Origin: a virus
Direction: 5' to 3' (one strand)
Virus record (IMG/VR): IMGVR_UViG_3300048592_000179
Coordinates: 1 to 49,454 of that record
DNA: 49,454 nt
Shown here: piece by piece, positions 2,984 through 38,142 of the stretch
Layout: each line of letters opens with the position of its first letter
Position numbering within the stretch: position 1 is the first letter of the stretch
The notes under the pieces: generated by a model
Told to the model about the DNA's origin: nothing
Database searches by the model: none
Seen by the model: the letters and a program-made list of their open reading frames with translations, nothing else
Translations under genes and position numbers: made by a program

Positions 2984-3346
2984 GTGAGTAAGGCCAAGGA
3001 GTTCACGCTGGACCTCGGGGGCGAGCAGGTCGGGTTGCGGTTCGACTTCAACGCGCTCGCCACCGTGGAGGAGCTCACGGGCCGGAACCTGGTGGTGGAG
3101 GGGTTGAAGGATCCCTCCATCACCGACCTCCGGGCCCTGATCTACGCCTGCAGCGTGGCGTGGTGCGATGCCCACAAAGAGGAGTGCAGGTACGACCTCA
3201 AGGCCATCGGCGGCATGCTCGACATGGATACCGTGACCCAGGCGTGGAGCACGCTCCAGGCCCTGACCACGGCGAACATGCCGGAGCAGCGAGGGCCGGC
3301 GGGGGTCGGCGAGGAAAACCCTCCGGAAGCCCCGGAAGGGGCCTAA
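2984..3346 (+). CDS. Tail assembly chaperone, short form (gpG-like)
   Basis: A protein of 120 residues from GTG 2984. The N-terminal strands (FTLDLGGEQVGLRFDFNALATVEE) resemble the GTA gp11/tail-chaperone family. The Pro/Glu-rich end stops at TAA 3344-3346. It sits just before the second chaperone frame and the tape measure gene, as lambda G does. The protein would coat the tape measure during tail assembly and is not expected in the virion. The C-terminal extension is probably made by frameshifting (see the next feature). Confidence 0.8.
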   Translation: MSKAKEFTLDLGGEQVGLRFDFNALATVEELTGRNLVVEGLKDPSITDLRALIYACSVAWCDAHKEECRYDLKAIGGMLDMDTVTQAWSTLQALTTANMPEQRGPAGVGEENPPEAPEGA

Positions 3347-3678
3347 CCGTCGAGCGGTGCTACGGCATCGCCACGACGTTCCTGGGGGTCGGGGAGGACG
3401 AGTTCTGGCGGATGACGCTTCGGCAGTTCGGGAGCAAGATGGACGCCTTCAACGACAGGGAGAAGGTGATGCGGCAAGAGGCAGACCTGCGGGCGGGAGT
3501 GATCGCGGCCACGCTCTGGAACACGGCCGCGTTCCGTGGCCCGGGATCCGAGGACCGCAAGCCGTCGGATTTCTTCGCCAGCCTGCAGGGGCCCGCGGAG
3601 GAGCCCCGAGACAACCCGCACGCCATGCACGCGGCCTTCCTCGCTCTGGTGGCGGGGAAGATCCAGAGAGCCAACTGA
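3313..3678 (+). CDS. Tail chaperone frameshift extension (gpT-like)
   Basis: This open frame lies at -1 relative to the upstream chaperone gene. It has protein-like content from TVERCYGIATTF through to the stop at 3676-3678 but no ATG, GTG or Shine-Dalgarno at its beginning; the first ATG is at 3412, inside the conserved part. This is the arrangement of lambda G/GT, where a -1 slip fuses the two parts. The slip site is not a canonical heptamer. The best candidates are GGAAAAC (3313-3319) and AGGGGCC (3337-3343) just before the stop. The start coordinate given is the first candidate and is approximate. Confidence 0.6.
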   Translation, partial: GKPSGSPGRGLTVERCYGIATTFLGVGEDEFWRMTLRQFGSKMDAFNDREKVMRQEADLRAGVIAATLWNTAAFRGPGSEDRKPSDFFASLQGPAEEPRDNPHAMHAAFLALVAGKIQRAN

Positions 3679-27718: not shown

Positions 27719-28112
27719 CGTCACGCCAGCAAGCACCGACGCCGAGGTGGTGGCCGCCAAGGCATGGGCGCGCTTCTACCTGTGGGCACAGGACCAGCCC
27801 GGAAACGGCCACCGGACTCGCCGGGCGTACAAGGGCGAGTCTGCTGACGACATCCTGGCGGCAAACGGCATCACGCTCGCCATGGGCGCACGGGAATACT
27901 GCCGGATCGCTGACCGCGTGATTGCCATGGGTTACGAGATCGCGGGCGGAAAGCAGGACAACCGTGGTATCGGCGAAAGCCTGACCAACTTGCACGCGGT
28001 GCGGGCGCGCTCCATGCGGGACAGTGGGGCAACCCTTCGCGAGATCGGAAGCCACCTGCACATCTCAATTGCGTCGGTCCACCGGCTACTTCGGGTGGAG
28101 CAAGCCGCATGA
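27711..28112 (+). CDS. HTH protein preceding the helicase-methylase
   Basis: A protein of 133 residues, GTG start in an 8-base overlap. The C-terminal 'MRDSGATLREIGSHLHISIASVHRLLR' is a resolvase-type or sigma-4-like HTH (residues about 103-129). The N-terminal part has no known motif. It may control or assist the helicase-methylase encoded immediately downstream with an ATGA overlap. Confidence 0.65.
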   Translation: MADVTPASTDAEVVAAKAWARFYLWAQDQPGNGHRTRRAYKGESADDILAANGITLAMGAREYCRIADRVIAMGYEIAGGKQDNRGIGESLTNLHAVRARSMRDSGATLREIGSHLHISIASVHRLLRVEQAA

Positions 28113-30472
28113 GGCGAGTCAATGTAAGGACGGACTACGCCGCGTTCTTGCGTGCGAAGGCCACGCCGGGCGTCCGATTCGACGGCGACTACGCCATTCT
28201 GCCACAGTGGGATGCCGCGGCCGATGAGATTGCGGGTGCGGTATCCGTATTGGCGCCTCACCTCCATGAGTACCAGCGATTCGGGGTGACGTTTGCTGTA
28301 GCGAGGCAAAAGGCTGCACTGTTTCTTGAGTGCGGGCTCGGGAAAACGTCTATCGCCATCGCGTGGGTAGAGCACGTCAGGCAGGGACGCCCGGCAATCA
28401 TATGCGCCCCGCTCGCAGCGCTGCACGAGTTCGAGAACGAGCGGGACAAGTTTTTCCCAGACGTGCCCCTTCACCGGGTGGAGACGGGGAACGTGGGCGG
28501 ATGGCTGGCGGAGCCCGATGGGATCGCCCTCGTAACGCATCACGCCTTCGTGCGGGAGCGCGACTTGGATGGCATTGCCGCCGTGGTTCTGGACGAGAGT
28601 TCCATTCTCAAGAGCGGGGATGGGGCCATTGCTCAGAATCTCGTGCGCGCGGTTCTCCCCGTCGCGTACCGTCTGGCGTTGTCGGCCACCCCCGCGCCGA
28701 ACGACCCCACCGAGTACGCCACACACGCGACGTGGCTGGGCTACATGAAGTCCGATGCCGAGTTTCGCGCCCGATTCTTTGTGCGGGACGGGAGAGAGTG
28801 GCGTGTCAAGGGACACGCGAAGGCAGCGCTTCCGAAGTGGCTCGCTCGGTTCGCCCTATGGATGACGGACCCTGCCGCCTATGAGATGCCGTGTGCGGCC
28901 CTTCCCGCGGAGGGCTACGGGCTCTATTACCACGACCTTCCGTCTGTACCAGACGTGAACGTGGAGCGCGACCTGTTCGGCACGCCGAGCGGCCCCCAAG
29001 ACATGAGTACGCGGTCCAAGCTGCGGGCGTCAGTATACGACGCCGCCGAGCGGATGGGCGCCGTTGCGACGTTGGCACGCGGACATCGAACTATCGTATG
29101 GACGATCCGCAACAACCACGCGGACGCCATCGAGAAACACCTGCGGGCACATGGATTCCGGGTAGCACAGATCGCCGGAGCCACGGATGACAATGACCGG
29201 GTGAATCATGTTCGTGCGTTCCAGTCGGGTCACCTGGACGTGCTCGTGTCGAAGCCGTCTGTCATCGGCCACGGAGTCAACCTCCAGGCATGCGAGCGGA
29301 TGGTATTCGCCGGATACGACGAGAGCTACGAGGCGTTCCACCAGGCAGTGAGGCGCGGGCATCGCCAGGGGCGGGTGGGACGTATGGACGTATTTGTGTT
29401 GGCCACGCCCGAGGAGGTGCCCGTCGTCCGCGCTCTGGAATTGAAGGCGGAACGGTGGAAGGATGACGCGGCCCGCCAGGAGGCCGAGTTTGTCAACGCC
29501 CTCGCTGGGGACCTAAACGCATACCGCACCGGACAGCGAATGGAGACATACGTGGACACACCGCACCGTATCGCGCCCGTGGAGTCGGATCACTTCCGGC
29601 TGATCCACGGGGACAGTATCGAGGAGATGGCCAACATGGAGGAGGAGTCCGTGGACATGGCCGTGTTCTCGCCCCCGTTCGCTTCGTTGTTCACATATTC
29701 GTCAGAGACGGCGGACATGGGCAACTGTTCGGACCAGGGCGAGGAGGAGTTCAGTATCCATTTCGCCCACTTCGCGGATGCCATCTATCGGGTGATGCGG
29801 CCGGGGCGGGTGGTGGCACTCCACCTGGCTCAGTTGGTGGCGTTCCGCGCTCGGCATGGGCGCAAGGGCATCCGTGATTTCCGGGGCGCAGTCATCGACA
29901 CAATGGAACGAGCCGGGTTTCTCTACTACGGGGAGTTCGTCATCCCAAAGAACCCCCAGGCCGCCGCCATTCGCACCAAGTCCGAACGGCTCCAGTTCGC
30001 TCAATTCAAGCGGGACAGCCTCGAAAGCTCTCCGGCCCTGAACGATTACGTGCTGGAGTTTCGCAAGCCCGGCATCCAGGCCGTCAAGGTCCGCAACGAC
30101 GTCAGCAACGAGGAGTGGATTAACTGGGCGTCCGGGGTGTGGAACGACATTCGAGAGACGGACGTGCTATCCTATCACGCGGCCCGTGGCGACAACGACG
30201 AGAAGCACATCTGCCCGCTTCAGTTGACCGTCATCGAGCGATGCATCCGACTTTGGACCAATCCGGGTGAGGTTGTGTTGTCACCGTTCGCCGGGATCGG
30301 CTCCGAGATCTATACGGCGATTCGTCAACGTCGGTTTGGAGTCGGGATCGAGTTGAAGGCCGAGTACCTGCAACAGGCTGTCGCCAACTGTTTGCGGGCC
30401 GAATCGGATACGTACCATCAGATGTCCGTGCTCTTGGATAATACGGACAGCCAAGATGTGTTAATCGCGTGA
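28109..30472 (+). CDS. SNF2-type helicase fused to a beta-class DNA methyltransferase
   Basis: A protein of 787 residues. Helicase part: Walker A ECGLGKT (74-80), motif II VLDESS (160-165, DESS in place of DEAH), SATP motif III (192-195), motif IV-V around SKPSVIGHGVNLQ, and motif VI QAVRRGHRQG (412-421), as in SNF2/SF2 translocases. Methylase part: SPPF motif IV (521-524) and the later FAGIGSE motif I (727-733), the order of beta-class N6-A/N4-C methylases. No nuclease motif is visible in this protein. It could translocate on and modify phage DNA, as DarB-type antirestriction proteins do. The specificity domain is not evident. Confidence 0.85.
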   Translation: MRRVNVRTDYAAFLRAKATPGVRFDGDYAILPQWDAAADEIAGAVSVLAPHLHEYQRFGVTFAVARQKAALFLECGLGKTSIAIAWVEHVRQGRPAIICAPLAALHEFENERDKFFPDVPLHRVETGNVGGWLAEPDGIALVTHHAFVRERDLDGIAAVVLDESSILKSGDGAIAQNLVRAVLPVAYRLALSATPAPNDPTEYATHATWLGYMKSDAEFRARFFVRDGREWRVKGHAKAALPKWLARFALWMTDPAAYEMPCAALPAEGYGLYYHDLPSVPDVNVERDLFGTPSGPQDMSTRSKLRASVYDAAERMGAVATLARGHRTIVWTIRNNHADAIEKHLRAHGFRVAQIAGATDDNDRVNHVRAFQSGHLDVLVSKPSVIGHGVNLQACERMVFAGYDESYEAFHQAVRRGHRQGRVGRMDVFVLATPEEVPVVRALELKAERWKDDAARQEAEFVNALAGDLNAYRTGQRMETYVDTPHRIAPVESDHFRLIHGDSIEEMANMEEESVDMAVFSPPFASLFTYSSETADMGNCSDQGEEEFSIHFAHFADAIYRVMRPGRVVALHLAQLVAFRARHGRKGIRDFRGAVIDTMERAGFLYYGEFVIPKNPQAAAIRTKSERLQFAQFKRDSLESSPALNDYVLEFRKPGIQAVKVRNDVSNEEWINWASGVWNDIRETDVLSYHAARGDNDEKHICPLQLTVIERCIRLWTNPGEVVLSPFAGIGSEIYTAIRQRRFGVGIELKAEYLQQAVANCLRAESDTYHQMSVLLDNTDSQDVLIA

Positions 30473-35020: not shown

Positions 35021-35582
35021 CCGAGGGTGGGAGGAGCTACACAAGGCTGTGGCTGAACTGTGGGGATACGACCAAGGATGGCCGACGCACGGAAACGCGC
35101 CACTCGCCATCGCGGCTGGTGTCGCACTGCGGGAAAGCGAGGTGGGGCGGCTGCGAGCGTGGGTGGACGATCTCCAGTCGGGCATGTACGTCAACTGCGT
35201 CTACTGCGGTCATCGCTACGGCCCCAATGAGACTACTCCTGTGAGCATGGCCGACGCGCTCAAGGCGCACATTGAAGAATGCCCAGACCACCCCATGAGT
35301 GCGCTCAGGGAAGAGGTTCAGCGCCTCCGCGCCGCCCTCGCCCTGCCCCGGCTCGGTGCCGCCCTAGCCCGGCCCGCCGAGCCCGTGGGGGAGTGGCGGC
35401 CCATCGAGACGGCACCACGCGACGGCACGGAGGTGCTGACGCTAAGGCGCGCTGGCCTCATGTCCGTGGCCGCGTACCTCCCGCACGGGAAAGCGGAGTG
35501 GTGCTGTGCGGACGGGGGCCGCCTCCTAAACGTGACCCACTGGATGCCGCTACCCGATCCCCCGGAGGTGCCCCATGGCTGA
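35013..35582 (+). CDS. Zinc-finger plus DUF551 protein
   Basis: A protein of 189 residues. Residues about 61-85 carry a finger (CVYCGHRYG ... HIEECPDH), followed by a coiled-coil-like helix and an ALARPAEPVG linker. The C-terminal 65 residues 'EWRPIETAPRDGTEVL ... THWMPLPDPP' are a DUF551 domain. The final PPEVPHG is the translated ribosome site of the Gp37 gene. Domain fusion of common phage modules. Function unknown. Confidence 0.7.
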   Translation: MADRGWEELHKAVAELWGYDQGWPTHGNAPLAIAAGVALRESEVGRLRAWVDDLQSGMYVNCVYCGHRYGPNETTPVSMADALKAHIEECPDHPMSALREEVQRLRAALALPRLGAALARPAEPVGEWRPIETAPRDGTEVLTLRRAGLMSVAAYLPHGKAEWCCADGGRLLNVTHWMPLPDPPEVPHG

Positions 35583-36465
35583 GAACAGCGCAATTCAGTG
35601 GACCGACCACACGTTCAATCCGTGGATCGGCTGCGCCAAGGTGTCGGCGGGCTGCAAGCACTGCTACGCAGAGACGCTGATGGACACGCGGTACGGGCGG
35701 GTCGAGTGGGGTGTGAACGGTACCCGCTCACGCACGTCGGACGCGAACTGGAAGAAGCCGTTGGCGTGGAACCGGGCCGCAGAGAAGGCGGGGAAGCCCG
35801 CCCGCGTGTTCTGCGCGTCGCTGGCCGACGTGTTCGAGGATCGGCCCGAGTTGGTGCCGTGGCGCTCCGACCTGTGGGCGCTGGTGGAGCGGACGCCGTG
35901 GCTGCGGTACCAGCTCCTTACGAAGCGCCCCGAAAACGTCATGGGCATGGTGCCGGAGTCGTGGCGCGACGGGTTCCCACCCCACGTATGGATCGGCACC
36001 TCGGTCGAGGACCAGGCCGCAGCCGACGAGCGCATCCCGCATCTGCTCCAGATCCCCGCGAAGGTCCGCTTCCTGTCGTGTGAGCCGCTGATCGGGCCGG
36101 TGGACCTGAAGCCGCAATGGCTCCACGAACACCCCGGCACCCTCCACCTAGGCCCCGGCCACTATCCAGGCCCAGCTATCCATTGGGTCATCGCGGGCGG
36201 CGAATCGGGACCGGGTGCAAGGCCGTGTGACGTGGCGTGGCTTCGGTCGCTCCGGGACCAGTGCGCAGCCGCTGGGGTGCCGTACTTCCTCAAGCAGCTT
36301 GGGTCGCGCCCGCATTCGGTGGCTGACCGCATCGGCCCCATCCCAAAGGGAATCGCTTTCCCGAACGGCTTCTACCGCCACCTGAACGACCACAAGGGCG
36401 GCGACATGGAGGAGTGGCCGGCGGACCTGAGGTTGCGGGGGTTCCCGGGGGGCGGCCGTGGCTGA
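35575..36465 (+). CDS. Phage Gp37/Gp68 family protein (DUF5131)
   Basis: A protein of 296 residues. The signature 'WTDHTFNPWIGCAKVSAGCKHCYAE' with Cys20-x6-Cys27-x2-Cys30 is diagnostic. The cysteines resemble a radical-SAM-type or iron-sulfur cluster site, and later 'QLLTKRPENV', 'WIGTSVEDQ' and 'ALADVFEDRP'-like segments are typical of the family. The biochemical function is not established. Starts in the GGAGGTGCCCC cassette. Confidence 0.9.
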   Translation: MAENSAIQWTDHTFNPWIGCAKVSAGCKHCYAETLMDTRYGRVEWGVNGTRSRTSDANWKKPLAWNRAAEKAGKPARVFCASLADVFEDRPELVPWRSDLWALVERTPWLRYQLLTKRPENVMGMVPESWRDGFPPHVWIGTSVEDQAAADERIPHLLQIPAKVRFLSCEPLIGPVDLKPQWLHEHPGTLHLGPGHYPGPAIHWVIAGGESGPGARPCDVAWLRSLRDQCAAAGVPYFLKQLGSRPHSVADRIGPIPKGIAFPNGFYRHLNDHKGGDMEEWPADLRLRGFPGGGRG

Positions 36466-37333
36466 CGCCCCACCAGCATGGACGACCATCCTGGCCGATA
36501 CCCGCTTGAGCCGGGAGGCCCGCATCATGGGTGCCTTCCTGGCGTCCATGGGCCCCGGGCAGCACGAGGTCTCGCACGACACATGGCGCCTACTCCTTGG
36601 ACGGTCTCCCCGAGGCGGTATGACCAAGGACGAGACACTGTCCGGATACCTGTCGGAGCTGACGTCCCACGGGTGGGCCGAGAGGATGTCCTTGGGTGGC
36701 CGGGGGTCACCCGTGTATCGGCTCTACCCCCCTCCAGCGGGGGGGGATGGCAATTCCTCTCCTACCCCCCAGGGGGGTACCATACTTTCTCCCCCCCCCC
36801 CAGGGGGTAGCATGGAAACCGTCTCCCCCCCTCCAGGAGGGGGGCAGGATCCTCCCTCCTCCTCCCCTCCTCCTTCACCACCTCCTGTAACTGCCGCGGG
36901 CGTGCGCGAGGATGGGGTGCGAGCGGACGCGGACCGGGTCATCGACGCTGCCGACGGGACACTCGACGGGTGCCGTGGTTCGCTCCGGGACTACCTCGCC
37001 GAGCGGGTCAGTCCCGAAAGGCAGCACGCCTACGTCCAGCGTGTGGTCACCGCGCTCGAAGGTGCCGACGAGTGGATGTGGAAGGATCGCACCGGCCGCA
37101 CCCTTCGCGACGGCCGTACCGCGGTCCTGGCGGCCGCGTTCAACGAACTCTTGGCCGGCGACGAGATCGGCAAGCACTTCCCCGAGCCGCCGGGTGGCTA
37201 CGGCAATCTCCGCTCGAAGGTCCGATACCTGGTTGCCTCTCAGCTCGGGGTCGAGAGAGACGCGACGAAGTCTGGGACGAGGGTCACCCCGTGCATCCCA
37301 GTCATCCCCGCCAACCAAGGAGCCTTCCGGTGA
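36458..37333 (+). CDS. Replication initiator, lambda-O-like
   Basis: A protein of 291 residues, GTG start. Residues 1-85 form a winged-helix-like domain (LADTRLSREARIMGAFLASMG, TKDETLSGYLSELTSHGWAER), residues about 85-145 a Pro/Gly/Ser linker, and residues about 150-290 a helical C-terminal part. The linker DNA holds four palindromic C/G iteron-like elements. The next gene is a DnaC-like loader. This is the organisation of lambda O-P, in which the N-terminal domain binds iterons inside its own gene and the C-terminal domain recruits the loader. Function is inferred from layout. Confidence 0.65.
   Translation: MADAPPAWTTILADTRLSREARIMGAFLASMGPGQHEVSHDTWRLLLGRSPRGGMTKDETLSGYLSELTSHGWAERMSLGGRGSPVYRLYPPPAGGDGNSSPTPQGGTILSPPPPGGSMETVSPPPGGGQDPPSSSPPPSPPPVTAAGVREDGVRADADRVIDAADGTLDGCRGSLRDYLAERVSPERQHAYVQRVVTALEGADEWMWKDRTGRTLRDGRTAVLAAAFNELLAGDEIGKHFPEPPGGYGNLRSKVRYLVASQLGVERDATKSGTRVTPCIPVIPANQGAFR
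36726..36844 (+). repeat. Four C-run/A/G-run palindromes, candidate origin iterons
   Basis: Elements are centred on a single A at 36736, 36771, 36802 and 36835, so the centre spacings are 35, 31 and 33 bases, about three helical turns. The second, TACCCCCC-A-GGGGGGTA (36763-36779), and fourth (36826-36844, arms of nine bases) are perfect palindromes around the A. The first has one mismatch and one G-T pair; the third has an 11-C run and five Gs. A polypyrimidine stretch (36849-36876) follows. They encode the PPxGG linker of the initiator. See the finding for the origin interpretation. Confidence 0.7.
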
Positions 37334-38142
37334 TGCAGCGCATCGGCACGCTCCGCAAGGTCACCACCGAGCCAGTCGAGTGCCCGTGCGGCACCGTGTT
37401 CGACGCCGAGGTCATGACGCTGGGCGAGGTCCGCGTAGCGCCGACCCACTGCCCTGCCTGCTACCTCGCGATCCGGAACCAGCCGGTCCACGCTGGCCGT
37501 GTGGCGACCACGGAGGACCAGGTCCTCGAAGACATGGAGTGGCTCGGGGTCAATCTGCAGGAGCACGGCTGGCTCGAGTACGGCCCCAACGCCGGCAAGC
37601 CCGCCACGCTGGACAACCTGGGCATCAGTCCAGGTGTCACGGCGGCCCGCAATTTCGTGCGCCGCCTCGTGGACGCCGGCCGGTGGAGGGCCGTGGTTCC
37701 GCTGTACCTGTGGGGGCCGACAGGGACCGGCAAGAGCCAGACCGGGGTTGCCGTCATCCGCGCCGCTCTGGAGGCCGGGATACCCCGTCAGGAGATCGTG
37801 TACGACCGGGGCCGGGCCATGGTCACGCAGCTCCAGGACCGCTACACCACGGGCACCGTGGACGAGTTCAGCGCCAAGCGTGGCCGCGCCCGCCTGTGGG
37901 TCTACGACGACACCGGCACCGAGAAGCTGACGCCATCCGCGTTCGCCGCCGTCGAGGACATCCTGGACCGCCGCGGGGGCAAGGCCAGCCTCATCACAGC
38001 CAACCACAACCGCGAGGAGACGGCGAATCGGTGGGCCAGCCAAGACGGGTGGGTGCGCCTGCGCTCCAGGCTGGGCCCGTATCATGAGGTCGAGATGGGT
38101 GGGCAGGACTGGCGGTTCGTGGAGCGGGGGGAGGTGGCATGA
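37333..38142 (+). CDS. DnaC-like helicase loader ATPase
   Basis: A protein of 269 residues from ATG 37333 (GTG 37330 also possible). An N-terminal zinc site (C17, C19, C40, C43) is followed by the AAA+ core: Walker A GPTGTGKS (128-135) and Walker B LWVYDDTG (188-195, DD at 192-193). The C-terminal 'ITANHNREETANRW' contains the sensor-like Asn. It would load the host replicative helicase at the phage origin. No phage helicase of DnaB type is encoded here, so host DnaB is probably used. Confidence 0.85.
   Translation: MQRIGTLRKVTTEPVECPCGTVFDAEVMTLGEVRVAPTHCPACYLAIRNQPVHAGRVATTEDQVLEDMEWLGVNLQEHGWLEYGPNAGKPATLDNLGISPGVTAARNFVRRLVDAGRWRAVVPLYLWGPTGTGKSQTGVAVIRAALEAGIPRQEIVYDRGRAMVTQLQDRYTTGTVDEFSAKRGRARLWVYDDTGTEKLTPSAFAAVEDILDRRGGKASLITANHNREETANRWASQDGWVRLRSRLGPYHEVEMGGQDWRFVERGEVA

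Follow-up and report, generated by a model that had tools for sequence, protein, structure and literature searches.

A putative lambda-O-like replication origin formed by C/G palindromes within an initiator gene of a GC-rich phage

The coding sequence of a single gene in a 49,454-nt viral record (IMG/VR IMGVR_UViG_3300048592_000179; "the window" below means this entire stretch) contains four closely spaced palindromes, each a run of C followed by a run of G, between positions 36723 and 36846. Such an arrangement raises the question of whether these elements serve the DNA, as iterons at which replication starts, or are an incidental result of the peptide encoded there, an RNA signal, or a site for some other process. 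Comparison with related loci leads us to conclude that they are very probably iterons of an intragenic replication origin like that in lambda gene O, one that would work as lambda ori does.

The gene (36458–37333, plus strand, GTG start, 291 aa) is defined by its open reading frame, an AF2 model and five relatives, and we regard it as a replication initiator; searches of its product against Pfam, PHROG and NCBIfam gave no match. The AF2 model consists of a winged-helix N-terminal domain, a disordered linker and a helical C-terminal domain, and the full-length prediction is of low quality beyond those domains (mean pLDDT 57). Modeled separately, the N-terminal winged helix-turn-helix (wHTH) domain (36458–36727, plus strand) reaches a pLDDT of 84 and a pTM of 0.73, with secondary structure in the order H-E-H-H-E-E. 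Its best PDB matches are wHTH proteins, including a plasmid Rep-DNA complex (5kbj), and these fold matches, the model and co-variation with iteron type suggest it as the iteron reader. The C-terminal domain (36950–37330, plus strand) is conserved at 49–72% identity in relatives, including locus L005, and we infer from co-conservation that it may contact the helicase loader. The loader gene itself (37333–38142, plus strand) begins with an ATG at 37333 that shares one base with the initiator stop codon. Its product matches phrog_50 (E = 1e-11), phrog_3277 (E = 2e-8) and Pfam IstB (E = 3e-7) and carries the P-loop motif GPTGTGKS, as expected for a DnaC-like AAA+ helicase loader. Both the placement of the palindromes between a winged-helix-like and a C-terminal domain and the DnaC-like gene downstream, as given in a preliminary description of this DNA, thus agree with the modeled layout and the profile matches.

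Downstream of the loader are genes for a sigma-region-4-like HTH protein and an HNH endonuclease, followed by terminase genes. Directly 5' of the initiator gene, positions 35575–36465 encode a DUF5131 protein (phrog_2045, E = 2e-89) of unassigned function, in a region whose DNA resembles that of Synechococcus and Xanthomonas phages. Farther away, a 787-aa ORF (28109–30472) matches DNA helicases in its first half and DNA methyltransferases in its second, and is likely a helicase-methyltransferase fusion.

All four elements, described earlier as a C-run, a central A and a G-run, are present on the plus strand where they had been placed. Iterons 2 (36758–36782, TCTCCTACCCCCCAGGGGGGTACCA) and 4 (36822–36846, TCTCCCCCCCTCCAGGAGGGGGGCA) are the two perfect palindromes of that description, the former with 8-bp arms (TACCCCCC-A-GGGGGGTA) and the latter with 9-bp arms around a central A, while iterons 1 (36723–36747, TCTACCCCCCTCCAGCGGGGGGGGA) and 3 (36788–36812, TCTCCCCCCCCCCCAGGGGGTAGCA) are imperfect. 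Recomputed best centers fall at 36737, 36771, 36799.5–36802 and 36835, so the reported spacing of 35, 31 and 33 bp is correct within 1–3 bp. A 20-nt consensus, TCTACCCCCCNCCAGGGGGG, has four matches with up to three mismatches in the 49 kb of the window, all of them in the array; 0.07 would be expected by chance, and none of 100 shuffles gave four. The window has six C5..G5 motifs in all, and the 120-bp array accounts for four of them.

Searches of viral contigs identified five relatives of the initiator: L001, L003, L005, L007 and the more distant L021. A further contig (L019) represents this locus type as a fragment with just the end of the upstream gene. Neither the phage and plasmid collections nor the genome collection contained a relative of the window initiator, and the C-terminal domain of L003 found none in the phage collection. 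The comparison therefore covers six loci including the window, all metagenomic. A loader gene adjoins the initiator in 5/5 relatives, and a repeat array of at least four copies occupies the linker in 6/6 loci, in four unlike sequence types. One type, TACCCCCC..GGGG, is shared by the window, L001 (four copies, 45/30/34 bp apart) and L007 (five copies, about 31–34 bp apart by eye), and these three have Pro/Gly linkers of the PPxGG sort. The arrays of the remaining three are unlike that of the window and encode no PPxGG peptide: TAGGG..GCGGCTCTA in L003 (four copies), palindromes of the form AACCCGGC-N7-GCCGGGTT in L021 (four copies, about 45/45/30 bp apart, arms matching at 8/8 positions in three and 7/8 in one), and GGGACACC repeats in L005, many paired 12 bp apart. 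Conservation in relatives beyond the needs of a PPxGG peptide, proposed as a check in the preliminary description, holds for array position and copy number, while peptide and repeat sequence vary; it also holds for spacing in L003, where the copies lie 35/30/33 bp apart with neither PPxGG nor C/G palindromes.

Across the six loci, similarity follows iteron type in the N-terminal domain alone, and not in the C-terminal domain or the loader. L007, with the same iterons as the window, shares 61% identity in the N-terminal domain, 62% in the C-terminal domain and 40% in the loader. For L003, with different iterons, the respective values are 45, 73 and 59%. In L005, where the iterons also differ, the N-terminal domain is unrelated to that of the window (z = 0), with 52% identity in the C-terminal domain and 59% in the loader. 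Judged by these similarities, L005 is a natural chimera in which a shared C-terminal domain and loader are joined to an unrelated N-terminal domain and to GGGACACC iterons. Its N-terminal region resembles the counterpart in Sulfitobacter phage pCB2047-A (E = 1e-6); in that phage the gene, initiator-like but otherwise different, contains GGGACA eight times, with no copy in the other 4.4 kb. The GGGACA link does not extend to Enterococcus and Staphylococcus phages whose N-terminal domains are similar; these have other repeats, spaced 11 bp apart. A Staphylococcus phage record (L041) was left out of the analysis, its stretch touching a toxin-named feature. The correlation across the six loci supports the N-terminal domain as the part that reads the iterons, binding being predicted.

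Because PPxGG alone encodes C-run/G-run DNA, and such linkers occur in the window, L001 and L007, the repeats could in principle be a by-product of selection for a Pro/Gly-rich peptide in GC-rich DNA. We consider this very improbable, and largely refuted. The array is kept in the same linker without PPxGG in L003, L005 and L021, so that what stays constant is the DNA array, with the PPxGG peptide as the by-product. In the window, a fixed-position test gives palindrome pairing of 36/48 at the four sites, as against means of 28.7 for synonymous recodings of the same peptide with genomic codon use and 30.4 with codons permuted within the linker; 0/2000 recodings reached the observed value. (A free-position score was dropped for want of power, PPxGG being palindromic by itself.) This symmetry corresponds to the inverted repeats able to bind dimers that characterize lambda-type origins, dimer binding here being predicted. 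CCG accounts for 0/12 proline codons in the elements (genomic share, 0.49) and GGC for 0/9 glycine codons (0.51). The identity between copies in the window was equaled by 8–13 of 1000 synonymous recodings, and that in L001, L003, L005 and L007 by 0–1 of 1000. The window elements are thus both more palindromic and more alike than the peptide demands. In each of these five arrays at least one copy also stands in a different reading frame from the others, with two frames in use in the window; since poly-C encodes proline and poly-G glycine in any frame, the elements tolerate spacings that are not multiples of three with the PPxGG linker intact. Applied to single loci, the palindrome test fails to reach significance in L003, L007 and L005, and reaches it in L021 only against genomic codon use, from which it follows that the repeat, rather than its symmetry, is the general feature.

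Palindromes could also act in the mRNA, as attenuator, translation-control or processing hairpins, and the arrays of the window (z = −4.1), L021 (z = −6.7) and L001 (z = −3.2) do fold strongly. However, hairpins arise automatically from DNA palindromes, the array has no Rfam match, and excess folding is absent in L007 (z = 0.04) and L005 (z = 0.23), both of which retain the array; we therefore give this explanation only a slim chance, little better than that of the peptide by-product. Somewhat more credible than either, and still improbable, is that the protein binds the array for autoregulation, incompatibility or partition, or that the array is a site for another factor, and not an origin. 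The co-variation covers only the array and the N-terminal domain and would fit any self-bound site, and with terminase genes following within 2 kb a role in packaging is conceivable. Against this, scanning the window with TCTACCCCCCNCCAGGGGGG (up to three mismatches) revealed no copies near a promoter or elsewhere outside the array, each relative has a DnaC-like loader gene alongside, and the arrangement is identical to that of lambda, where the origin is proven (PMC7466680; PMC5043065). An intragenic origin is accordingly our preferred reading of the locus.

How such an origin might open is less obvious. On the loader side of the array, the top strand carries a polypyrimidine tract (36850–36886), which we propose as the unwinding element; L001, L003 and L007 share its position and strand, and L005 and lambda have a purine tract at the equivalent place. 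The tract is C/T-rich and low only in relative duplex stability, and no AT-rich unwinding region was found on the loader side. Tract length was compared with synonymous recodings in the window, L001, L003, L005 and L007. It is no longer than the peptide gives in the window (67/500 recodings, PPSSSPPPSPPP peptide), L007 (106/500) or L005 (87/500), and longer than the peptide predicts in L001 (4/500) and L003 (9/500). The polypyrimidine stretch noted in the preliminary description is therefore real, but its length in the window is explained by the encoded peptide. The 40-bp segment containing the tract ranks among the least stable 4–9% of the gene in the window (4%), L001 and L007, and is about the least stable of all in L003; the least stable 40 bp of the window gene lie inside the array, not in the tract. 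The tract may plausibly have a role in melting. Cumulative GC skew, proposed earlier as a further indicator, lent no support: it climbs along the entire record and turns neither at the array nor anywhere else.

In the mechanism that we propose for the intragenic origin, each palindrome would be bound by dimers of the N-terminal domain, the whole forming an O-some-like complex that spans about 120 bp. The adjacent pyrimidine tract, which ranks low in stability within the gene, would melt, and the C-terminal domain would recruit the DnaC-like loader, which would load the DnaB helicase of the host onto the strand thus opened. Iterons and N-terminal domain would change in step as lock and key, with the C-terminal domain and loader retained. 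More tentatively, and as a possibility that we ourselves rate on the doubtful side, GC-rich phages may have a distinct class of intragenic origin that lacks an AT-rich melting element and uses a homopyrimidine or homopurine tract beside C/G palindromes for strand opening, the N-terminal domain and iterons being swapped between phages as one cassette and the loader-contacting half remaining constant. Within the searches made, the protein family, the C/G palindromes, the lack of an AT-rich element and the natural series of domain-iteron swaps are new; the underlying logic was already known. In uncultured GC-rich phages an origin is difficult to spot from sequence without an AT-rich zone or a skew turn, as in this case, and a simple rule is offered here: seek repeats in the linker of the gene preceding the loader. 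The natural swap series, with the same C-terminal domain and loader and four iteron types, lets N-terminal recognition be tested, and the locus raises the question of how an origin opens without AT-rich DNA.

More distant loci, found through the loader, include four (L024, L030, L031 and L033) that also have arrays inside the gene 5' of the loader, spaced about 19–22 bp in L024, L031 and L033 and 45–69 bp in L030; others have only purine tracts or nothing clear. In this loader-found sample, arrays placed in this way are common without being universal. Several of these loci, which have DnaC-like loaders, also carry purine tracts following or close to the repeats, as in L031, where at least four identical CTGATTCCCTTAACCCTA repeats lie 21 bp apart at 3242–3375 and a purine tract follows; this region is a probable origin. 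In L035 a 55-nt purine-rich tract lies at about 3516 in the gene that precedes the loader, with no strong repeat array evident ahead of it. A pattern scan for window-type iterons also returned L016, with repeats outside any recognized initiator gene, and L043, with a single element after a purine tract, both of which we took as chance. A 115-kb record (L017, 350–900, minus strand) has TACCCCGAAATCAGGGGT-type elements in the linker of an unrelated wHTH-like frame (P0001), possibly an independent, parallel GC-rich intragenic origin.

Several known systems place an origin inside an initiator gene. In lambda, O dimers bind four inverted repeats within gene O, beside a 40-bp region rich in A+T (PMC5043065; PMC7466680). 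The window resembles it in having four palindromic iterons in mid-gene, between the DNA-binding and C-terminal domains and in a relative position matching that of the four iterons annotated in lambda, with a helicase-loader gene directly downstream and a strand-asymmetric, easily melted tract (AAAAGAAAAAAGAAAAGA in lambda) on the loader side. It differs in that its iterons are almost entirely C/G and 30–35 bp apart (20–24 in lambda), its tract is pyrimidine rather than purine on the top strand, it has no AT-rich element, and its loader is a DnaC/IstB-like AAA+ protein and not lambda P. No homology to lambda O (Phage_rep_O) appeared in Pfam, PHROG or NCBIfam, so that membership of that family is unsupported by sequence; the earlier proposal of lambda-like logic with unrelated GC-rich iterons fits the matching domain order and loader, and the array kept in relatives. 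P22 and phage L have distantly related initiators, each with its own different iterons within the coding region of gene 18, which in phage L are reported as 11-bp repeats, TGTCCAACGGA (PMC8022706). These resemble the one-turn-spaced module of L005 and its N-terminal relatives, whereas the gene next to them (12) encodes a DnaB-type helicase rather than a loader, and they are not GC-only. In L005 itself, GGGACACC repeats at about one-turn spacing are followed by AAAGAAGAAGGAAGAAGAAGGAAG (506–745); the reverse complement of the phage L repeat ends in GGACA, as does the L005 repeat.

Among plasmids with RepA_N initiators, pSK41 has its origin centrally within rep, and the protein segment derived from it is dispensable (PMC5703833). 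The solved N-terminal domains of plasmid Rep proteins resemble the fold of the window domain, and three are among its best fold matches (TM 0.59–0.61, Foldseek E 0.04–0.11). These three, 5kbj, 4pt7 and 4pql, we take to be RepA_N proteins; the match is one of fold only, and weak (TM 0.61, E = 0.04, no sequence match), which suggests that the window domain and these proteins share just the wHTH fold. RepA_N systems also differ in belonging to plasmids of low GC, in a C-terminal domain that recruits primase and in having no loader gene. In the Streptomyces linear plasmid pSLA2, GC-rich iterons are said to sit in rep1, with the helicase-like rep2 next.
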